Origin: Alphaproteobacteria bacterium
GTDB lineage: Bacteria; Pseudomonadota; Alphaproteobacteria; Rs-D84
DNA length: 33,380 nucleotides
Assembly (NCBI GenBank): GCA_009782315.1
Contig: WRJH01000006.1
Span: 1-33,380, forward strand
Direction of reading: 5' to 3'
The position numbers and the translations under genes are program-made. Below are positions 21,653 to 31,179 of the stretch, one piece after another; position 1 is the first letter of the stretch; each line of letters starts with the position of its first letter. The notes beneath the pieces are model-generated. The model had not been told where the DNA came from. It worked only from the letters and a program-made list of their open reading frames with translations, and made no database searches.

Positions 21653-23437
21653 ATGAACCTATTAGACTCATCTTATCTGTGCCTTGATATCGGAACTTCC
21701 GGGGTTTCCGGAATGGCGGTCCGGATATCGGGCGGACGGCTGTCGTCGCAACAGACCGCCTCGTTCGAATCCAGCGATATAACAAAGGCCATAAAAAAAA
21801 CCGTGGATATTTTGGAACAATCCATGGGCGTTCGGTTCGATTCCGCATTTGTGACCGGAAATTTCGGCGCAATCGATTATAAAATCATACCTATCAGAAA
21901 AGATTGGGCCAGAGAGCGCAGGATAACAAGTTCGGACATTTCATCCGCGATTATGGACGCGCCCGAAATACGGGGCGGTGCGTCCGTTCTTCATTTGATT
22001 CCGCTGCGGTACGATTTAGAGGATTTTCCAAACATATCGACGCCGGTCGGCCAGGTGTCGAAAAGTCTGTCCGCGATTTTTTGCGCCGTATCGGCGGATA
22101 CGGACGGCATAACGCGCGCGCGCGAACACCTGCGCGCGGCGCACATCAGACCGCGGGAATATTTTGACACGTCCTTTCTTTTGGCCCAGACCGTGCGGCC
22201 GGCCAAAGAATCGTCGTTGTTTATCGATTTGGGCGCGTCGCATACGGCGGTGTCGCTTTGGACAATCCGCGGCCCGATGCTTTTGAAACGGATTCCCGCC
22301 GGCCAGCACGCGGTTACCGACGCCGTCGCCGGCGGACTGGGCCTGCAATGGGGCGCGGCCGAAAAAATAAAGCGCGACAACATATCGCTGGACAGCGGGG
22401 ACAGGGACCGCTTCACGCCCGCATGCGAAAGCGACCAGCACGATTTCACCCGCGCGGATGTCAACGATTTGGCCTTGCCGGCGCTGTATGAAATATTGCA
22501 ACAGGCGGCCGATTTATCCAAGGCATCGCGCGCGAAATATAATCCGACAAAAATATATCTGACCGGGGGCGGCGCGGACATTCCGGGAATGACGGGCGCC
22601 GCGCAAAACATATTCGGGGCGGATGCGGAAATTCCGGGTCCGGGGGCGGCGGCCGCATCATGCGCCGCGTACGTCTGGTCGCGGTATGCGCCCCGCGCCG
22701 CCACAATAGTAATGCGGAAAAAAAGGCGCGGCTTCATCCTGACCGGCATTGCGGGCGGAGTGAGAAAACTGTTCCGGGGACGCAAAAAACAAAAAGCGAT
22801 TCCGATTATGCCCAGCACCCTGGCGTTCAACATGCGCGACATGGCGACGTACGCGCGGTTTCGTTCGGGCGGAATTTCAATGATTCATGTCGACATAATG
22901 GACGGGCTGTACACTTCCGAAATGGCGGGCGGACTGGATGAATTAAAATTCATACGAAAACATACGGACGCCCATCTGCATGTTCACCTGATGACCCAAA
23001 ACCCGGAAACCTGGGCCGCCGCCGCAATGGAATCCGGCGCCGATACGATAATTGTTTCGACCGGAACATACGGCGTCCGCGCCGCGATTGCAAAAATAAA
23101 GTCATGCGGAAAACGCGCAGGGATTGCAATCGGCCCGGACAGTCCGCTTGGGATATTAAAACCCATACTGCGCGAAATCGACGAAGTGCTGGTAATGTCG
23201 GTCGCGCCGGGCAAAGGCGGCCAGAAATTTTTACCGGGCGCCGCGACACGCATAGCGGCGCTGGTCGCGGCGCGAAAAACGCATAAATTGAATTTCAAGA
23301 TTTCCGTGGACGGCGGAATCAATCCGGACACCGCGAAAGAATGCTGGGCGGCGGGCGCGGACGCGTTAGTGTCCGGCAATTTTCTGGCAAAGGCGGCCGA
23401 CTTTCCCGCCGCGGTCCAGGAATTAATCCTGCGTTAA
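21653..23437 (+). CDS. FtsA - ribulose-5-phosphate 3-epimerase fusion (FtsA about residues 1-382, Rpe about 383-594)
   Basis: FtsA motifs LCLDIGTSGVSG, SLFIDLGASHT, IYLTGGGADIPGM and amphipathic FILTGIAGGVRKLFRGR; then Rpe motifs IMPSTLAFNM, MIHVDIMDGLY, HVHLMTQNP, VLVMSVAPGKGGQKF, ISVDGGIN, ADALVSGN; one uninterrupted frame. Confidence 0.93.
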   Translation: MNLLDSSYLCLDIGTSGVSGMAVRISGGRLSSQQTASFESSDITKAIKKTVDILEQSMGVRFDSAFVTGNFGAIDYKIIPIRKDWARERRITSSDISSAIMDAPEIRGGASVLHLIPLRYDLEDFPNISTPVGQVSKSLSAIFCAVSADTDGITRAREHLRAAHIRPREYFDTSFLLAQTVRPAKESSLFIDLGASHTAVSLWTIRGPMLLKRIPAGQHAVTDAVAGGLGLQWGAAEKIKRDNISLDSGDRDRFTPACESDQHDFTRADVNDLALPALYEILQQAADLSKASRAKYNPTKIYLTGGGADIPGMTGAAQNIFGADAEIPGPGAAAASCAAYVWSRYAPRAATIVMRKKRRGFILTGIAGGVRKLFRGRKKQKAIPIMPSTLAFNMRDMATYARFRSGGISMIHVDIMDGLYTSEMAGGLDELKFIRKHTDAHLHVHLMTQNPETWAAAAMESGADTIIVSTGTYGVRAAIAKIKSCGKRAGIAIGPDSPLGILKPILREIDEVLVMSVAPGKGGQKFLPGAATRIAALVAARKTHKLNFKISVDGGINPDTAKECWAAGADALVSGNFLAKAADFPAAVQELILR

Positions 23438-30772: not shown

Positions 30773-30901
30773 GGCACCTTTTGTTTTCGTTATCCCAGGG
30801 GCGATGAATTCCACCGCGGTGCCACCCTGATTTTTATCTTGTATGTCCTGCCATCCCTGCTCTCTCGTTTGTCAGACGCGTCATCGCGGGGTCGGTTAGA
30901 C
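30773..30901 (-). promoter_or_regulatory. T-box riboswitch-like leader of aspS
   Basis: Exact core AGGGTGGCACCGCG (30828-30815), antiterminator helix CAGGG/CCCTG (30829-30825 with 30800-30796), AGAGA and GATG motifs upstream. Confidence 0.8.
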
Positions 30902-30907
30902 ATTCAA

Positions 30908-30935
30908 AGTATAGACGACTTTTCCCAAAAATCAA
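30908..30935 (-). promoter_or_regulatory. Sigma70-like promoter of the aspS leader
   Basis: TTGATT - 16 nt - TATACT on the minus strand. Confidence 0.6.
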
Positions 30936-30976
30936 GTTGATTTTCGAATTACTATTGTTATAATGCCTTTCGTCAG

Positions 30977-31105: not shown

Positions 31106-31179
31106 GCCCCCATAGTATAATGGTAGAACACGTCCTTGGTAAGGACGAGACGCAAGTCCGATTCTTGCTGGGGGCACCA
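31106..31179 (+). tRNA. tRNA-Thr (GGT)
   Basis: GCCCCCA/TGGGGGC acceptor, CGTCC-TTGGTAA-GGACG anticodon arm, GCAAG-TCCGATT-CTTGC T-arm, encoded CCA. Confidence 0.96.

Follow-up and report, generated by a model that had tools for sequence, protein, structure and literature searches.

Published accounts place T-box riboswitches in Firmicutes, Actinobacteria, Chloroflexi and Deinococcus-Thermus only, apart from two deltaproteobacterial leuA genes (PMC3766115, PMC2494555). Canonical and actinobacterial T-boxes carry a purine-flanked Stem III together with one of two further parts, a distal Stem I or Stem II plus the IIA/B pseudoknot (PMC7583486). According to the same work, tRNA binding by a truncated Stem I depends on Stem II and IIA/B, Stem III is indispensable for sensing, and a basal G-U wobble in helix A2 is held to sense the 3'-aminoacyl group. 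A literature search limited to open-licence papers yielded no paper on alphaproteobacterial T-boxes.

Here we describe the leader of aspS in a 33,380-nt stretch of alphaproteobacterial DNA, referred to below as the window (Table 1). Comparative sequence analysis leads us to regard this leader as very probably a translational, tRNA-Asp-sensing T-box riboswitch of a new minimal architecture with three working parts. Like it, the class II (translational) T-boxes in the ileS leaders of Actinobacteria (Mycobacterium, Nocardia) have a short Stem I with a K-turn below the codon, a UGGN bulge and masking of the Shine-Dalgarno site by alternative pairing. These RNAs need, however, a Stem II with an S-turn and the IIA/B pseudoknot (PMC7583486), whereas the window leader has no Stem II, no IIA/B and no Stem III hairpin, and its gene and host are aspS and an alphaproteobacterium. 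The glycyl (glyQS) T-boxes of Firmicutes likewise do without Stem II and pass from the K-turn into a flexible linker, but their long elbow-docking Stem I, their Stem III and their terminator are all missing from the window leader. With the class I family of Rfam (RF00230) the leader shares the antiterminator with its 7-nt bulge and the logic of codon plus UGGN; it differs in lacking the distal Stem I and in a basal A2 pair that is G-C, not G-U. The leuA T-boxes of Geobacter and Pelobacter (Deltaproteobacteria) also belong to Proteobacteria as then defined (PMC2494555, PMC3766115), but are described as typical and are neither alphaproteobacterial nor minimal. Codon, UGGN, bulge, K-turn and alternative pairing support reading the window leader as a T-box in the broad sense, one that would fall into neither established architecture.

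Table 1. Coordinates of the aspS leader and gene within the window
Feature	Position	Strand	Basis and details
Candidate sigma-70 promoter TTGATT-16-TATACT	30908..30935	(-)	Sequence; transcript start expected near 30901
Stem I	30855..30891	(-)	Outer helix 30891-30886/30860-30855; inner helix 30878-30876/30868-30866
Specifier loop CUGACAA	30869..30875	(-)	Codon GAC (Asp) 30873-30871
Single-stranded linker with purine string AAGAUAAAAA (30840-30831)	30830..30854	(-)	Resembles RRRxG-[Stem III]-AA without Stem III
Antisequestrator	30796..30829	(-)	RF00230 positions 183-216
Sequestrator GGUGCC over Shine-Dalgarno site	30773..30778	(-)	Complementary to bulge GGCACC
aspS, aspartate--tRNA ligase, 594 aa	28984..30768	(-)	NCBIfam PRK00476; ATG start 30768

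Results

A conserved leader in front of an alphaproteobacterial aspS

The host is a gut bacterium with an alphaproteobacterial genome of about 0.8 Mb, and the relatives used for comparison are MAGs of its order, Rs-D84 ('Candidatus Enterousia'), a group with reduced genomes that lack amino acid biosynthesis (PMC12306168). The aspS product scores 737.5 bits against NCBIfam PRK00476 (cut-off 443) and is 77-78% identical to its nearest family members, compared with 50-55% for other families of the class, in agreement with the initial annotation, which had taken the enzyme for an alphaproteobacterial one. An alternative upstream start codon, GTG 30777, would put the start within GGTGCC. The promoter, the leader of about 130 nt and the GATG and AGAGA motifs named in the same annotation are all present on the minus strand; the promoter has 9 of 12 consensus matches, which in a consensus scan is by itself not above chance.

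A second promoter-like site on the opposite strand (TTGATT-16-TATAAT, 30937-30964, plus strand) overlaps the aspS promoter and faces a tRNA-Thr(GGT) gene (31106-31179, plus strand) that adjoins the leader in divergent orientation. In many gut relatives (L030, L032, L041, L046), tRNA-Thr(GGT) lies directly upstream of the aspS leader on the same strand. Elsewhere in the window, a 594-aa ORF (21653-23437, plus strand) joins an FtsA/PilM-like N-terminal part to a ribulose-phosphate 3-epimerase C-terminal part, an unusual fusion.

Searched with Infernal as the initial annotation had proposed, RF00230 (gathering cut-off 93 bits) does match at the right site, with 23.1 bits and an E-value of 0.0015-0.0023, but the match stays below the cut-off and covers only the antiterminator, model positions 183-216. 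At the gathering threshold the window contains no match, and a search of the host's own genome at E 10 returns the window leader and one chance match only. The survey of relatives, also proposed at the outset, gave an RF00230 match in 31 of 60 related genomes and 17 of 29 genera. In most cases the match immediately precedes aspS or a second synthetase of aspartyl/asparaginyl type, and the leader seen in the window recurs before aspS in about 90 relatives. When 12 leaders of gut lineages, but not the window, were used to build a covariance model (R2), its single match in the 33 kb was the window leader at 30898-30786, at 62.2 bits and an out-of-sample E-value of 6.9e-14. Together with the relatives, this result supports the original proposal that aspS of this alphaproteobacterial genome has a T-box leader.

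Another model, R1, matched strongly, at one site per genome (two in G016), in most of the family members that were searched, and gave no T-box match in genera g4 and g10. Across 385 genomes of the class a strong score was obtained in this family only, two other families having longer aspS T-boxes. A DNA-pattern scan of a named genome collection retrieved 99 stretches, mostly from alphaproteobacterial gut, rumen and termite MAGs, several of them Candidatus Enterousia; the few matches from outside the Alphaproteobacteria were Patescibacteria leaders or else apparent chance matches or ordinary T-boxes.

The plain fold energy of the window leader is not better than that of shuffles (z -0.3), and single-sequence folding is thus no evidence here. 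Judged by sequence comparison, the window leader is weakly significant to Rfam when taken alone and far beyond chance when its relatives are included. Annotation with RF00230 at its cut-off overlooks a whole family of regulators. A chance resemblance or an assembly chimera, for which the sub-threshold RF00230 match might be cited, has next to no probability: conservation and covariation at the same gene in many independent MAGs refute both, and the chimeric contig that the initial annotation had kept in view is excluded because independent MAGs, from the same genus as well as from elsewhere in the family, repeat the arrangement of leader and aspS.

A short, covarying Stem I with an aspartate codon in its loop

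Our alignment of 92 short leaders (A1) was collected with a pattern that fixed the codon as RAC and left the outer Stem I helix unconstrained. Over the whole proposed structure, 91.4% of cells are paired and 14 of 22 pairs have two-sided changes; there are 337 two-sided compensatory cells against a shuffled mean of 119, a count reached by none of 500 shuffles, and slid registers are at most 54% paired. The outer Stem I helix is 84% paired, with two-sided changes at all seven pairs and all six standard pair types at several of them, and RNAalifold recovers both Stem I helices along with the antisequestrator. In the window the outer helix has 5 bp and one C-A mismatch, and the 3' side of the loop is longer by 1 nt.

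The two covarying helices enclose a GA/GA loop with three extra bases on its 5' side. The corresponding columns read GA at 92-93 (91/92 and 92/92 leaders) and GA at 111-112 (84/92 and 90/92), and in the window GAU-GA (30885-30881) lies opposite GA (30862-30861) in a K-turn-like internal loop. This NNU-GA/GA arrangement is the signature of a K-turn, predicted here directly below the specifier loop, as in canonical T-boxes (PMC7583486). The earlier suspicion that Stem I may be reduced was right: it is a short hairpin that stops at the specifier loop, with no long, elbow-docking distal end (IDTM).

The specifier was initially sought in the GAC of AGGACATAC (about 30849-30841). We reject that position, which sits in the unconserved, variable linker; the conserved GAC lies in the loop at the tip of Stem I. 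The codon column holds GAC in 83 and AAC in 9 of the 92 leaders. Because the collection pattern required RAC, an unbiased statement about the codon rests on 22 pattern-free short leaders, found through RF00230 or aspS and read by eye: those of aspS comprise 19 with GAC and 2 with AAC, and the single leader of the second synthetase has AAC. The specifier codon thereby matches the amino acid of the downstream gene, AspRS or an aspartate--tRNA(Asn)-ligase-type enzyme. AAC is also the codon of leader L150. A rule under which aspS would carry AAC only where the second synthetase is absent fails, several genomes without that synthetase having GAC.

An antisequestrator bulge complementary to the tRNA 3' end

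The exact T-box core AGGGTGGCACCGCG at 30828-30815 and the CAGGG/CCCTG helix at 30829-30825/30800-30796 were correctly read on the minus strand by the initial annotation. This helix (CAGGG/CCCUG in the RNA) forms A1 of the antisequestrator and is followed by the 7-nt T-box bulge UGGCACC (30824-30818) and by A2, which comprises 6 bp (GCGGUG/CAUCGC) and a GAAUU loop. The basal A2 pair, expected to be a G-U wobble, is G-C in 92 of 92 leaders. In 20 of 20 relatives the UGGC of the bulge complements the encoded GCCA 3' end of tRNA-Asp, the N of UGGN being complementary to the discriminator base. In T-boxes before archaeal-type tyrS genes of the same order the bulge reads UGGU, which fits A73, and a terminator is present. 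With UGGC before aspS and UGGU before tyrS, the bulge base thus follows the gene. Searches with cmsearch, ARAGORN and a pattern found no tRNA-Asp gene in the 88%-complete assembly of the window genome; genomes of the same genus have one.

The tRNA-Asn of the window genome also ends in GCCA and is likewise complementary to UGGC, and the leader could conceivably sense tRNA-Asn as much as tRNA-Asp, with a non-discriminating AspRS supplying Asp-tRNA-Asn to GatCAB and the codon drifting between GAC and AAC. Several relatives do have AAC in front of aspS; gatB occurs in the window genome, as it does in 56 of the 60 related genomes; and the second AspRS/AsnRS-type synthetase is patchy among related genomes and was not found in that of the window, its 'AsnRS' paralogue in relatives having aspartate--tRNA(Asn) ligase as best NCBIfam description. 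A non-discriminating AspRS with GatCAB is plausible and would explain why AAC can replace GAC. Equal sensing of the two tRNAs nevertheless appears unlikely to us, as GAC is found in the window and in about 90% of aspS leaders and a single codon reads one anticodon. We accordingly keep tRNA-Asp as the probable ligand.

A purine-rich linker in place of Stem II and Stem III

Where Stem II would be, RNAalifold leaves about 25 nt unpaired. The linker columns (140, A in 88/92; 141, purine in 92/92; 142, G in 74/92; 145, A in 90/92; 147-148, AA in 92/92) give a purine consensus AAAG-UUAU-AAA, in which the purines that flank Stem III are kept and a short insert stands in place of the hairpin. By the 92-leader alignment and RNAalifold, the minimal leader has neither a distal Stem I nor Stem II, IIA/B or a Stem III hairpin. 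In longer leaders of the same order, namely those of the second synthetase, of aspS in genus g2 and of other families, a Stem II-like GAAAG...CUUUC and CGGG-UAU-GCCCG are still present, and the same purines flank a Stem III hairpin; at the linker position the long paralogous leaders have AAAAG-[hairpin]-AAAA. Since longer leaders of the order retain Stem II-like and Stem III elements, the minimal form of the window most likely arose by loss.

Such loss might have abolished tRNA sensing as well, leaving a degenerate T-box whose antisequestrator and sequestrator act as a fixed translation brake. The lost elements, Stem II and Stem III, are among those described as indispensable (PMC7583486), and some genera of the family (g4, g10) have lost the entire T-box. 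Yet compensatory changes maintain the Stem I helices, and about 90 genomes preserve the codon, the K-turn, UGGC and GGUGCC, which makes a mere brake very unlikely in our estimate.

Alternative pairing over the Shine-Dalgarno site

The sequestrator GGUGCC is exact in 78 of 91 relatives and has one mismatch in a further 10, against 0.1% and 6.8% in shuffled downstream sequence. In the window this hexamer and the Shine-Dalgarno site overlap, 4 nt upstream of the ATG, a direct layout that is similar in 8 relatives; in 68 others, mostly of gut lineages, about 50 nt separate GGUGCC from the start, and a further complementary segment is present. The GGCACC/GGUGCC pairing and the antisequestrator are mutually exclusive. 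Left unconstrained, the leader folds into the sequestrator at -46.5 kcal/mol, compared with -43.9 kcal/mol for the antisequestrator, and the cost of 2.6 kcal/mol for enforcing the latter fits a switch whose default state is off.

The stretch from the antisequestrator to aspS in the window leader holds no intrinsic terminator. As the alternative pairing covers the Shine-Dalgarno site, we infer that the output is translational; the CAGGG/CCCTG helix of the initial annotation is retained, but not its role as an antiterminator. Control mainly by transcription, through premature termination that is possibly Rho-dependent with the leader untranslated, would resemble the minimal T-boxes of Patescibacteria and the tyrS T-boxes of the order, which end in hairpins followed by T-runs. 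Little credence attaches to such control in the window, given the missing intrinsic terminator and the position of GGUGCC on the Shine-Dalgarno site, similar in 8 relatives, and masking of that site is the output we prefer.

In gut Enterousia-type leaders (L053-L151), GGUGCC has a second possible partner further downstream, and this segment may mask the Shine-Dalgarno site. With moderate support, the layout of this clade is possibly a four-segment relay; the relay pairing is moderately above shuffles there and is not needed for the window.

Discussion

Our analysis suggests how a leader of this kind might couple the charging state of a tRNA to translation. The short, K-turn-bearing Stem I hairpin would display GAC (AAC in some relatives) in its loop, where uncharged tRNA-Asp would pair through its anticodon GUC while its free GCCA end pairs with the UGGC of the bulge. 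Binding would hold the antisequestrator closed and leave the Shine-Dalgarno site free, and AspRS would be made. The 3' end of charged tRNA could not seat, and the bulge would then pair with GGUGCC and block initiation. AspRS would in this way be raised when aspartate is scarce, a response that would suit bacteria without amino acid biosynthesis (PMC12306168). What the comparison shows is conservation of sequence and structure; binding of the tRNA, the sense of its charging and the translational output are inferred. Against a minimal T-box stand the absence of Stem II, IIA/B, Stem III and the A2 G-U wobble, and an RF00230 score below the cut-off. The mismatch and the longer loop side in the window's Stem I count against it too, as do a plain fold and a promoter match no better than chance and the failure to find a tRNA-Asp gene in the assembly.

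On this evidence we lean towards the view that an RNA of about 95 nt can read a tRNA by means of a K-turn hairpin whose loop holds the codon, a purine string and an antisequestrator, dispensing with elbow docking, Stem II and the Stem III hairpin, and that it would represent a third T-box architecture, translational in Rs-D84 and transcriptional in some Patescibacteria. The minimal element lacks both Stem II and Stem III, parts held necessary by structural work (PMC7583486), and as a natural RNA without them it makes directly testable how little RNA is needed to read a tRNA and its charging state. It would also offer a compact sensor for engineering.

Very similar minimal leaders stand on aspS or the second synthetase in some Patescibacteria (L216-L218, L221), where they reach 50-71 bits with R2 and end in terminator-like hairpins and T-runs in place of GGUGCC. 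The Patescibacteria concerned are Vogelbacteria, Taylorbacteria and relatives, with minimal or short T-boxes on aspS-type genes, and 12 of the 148 genomes from that order gave an R2 match. T-box cores before probable thrS and ileS genes also occur in this set of Patescibacteria loci, which includes L219 and L230 as well.

Other families of Rs-D84 carry the archaeal-type tyrS T-boxes (L003, L006 and L007, in G037, G043 and G040, respectively), in which UGGU is combined with terminator hairpins followed by T-runs; that of L003 is nearly full length, at 90.4 bits. Their features suggest that the tyrS T-boxes are transcriptional and came with the gene. The long T-boxes of the second synthetase (L008, L013, L017 and others) have Stem II-like, IIA/B-like and Stem III elements and the codon AAC, and they are found in some genomes whose aspS leader is minimal. 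Genome G016 has two aspS genes (C26 and C100), each with its own minimal GAC T-box, and one of the two is divergent from a second synthetase that bears a long T-box.
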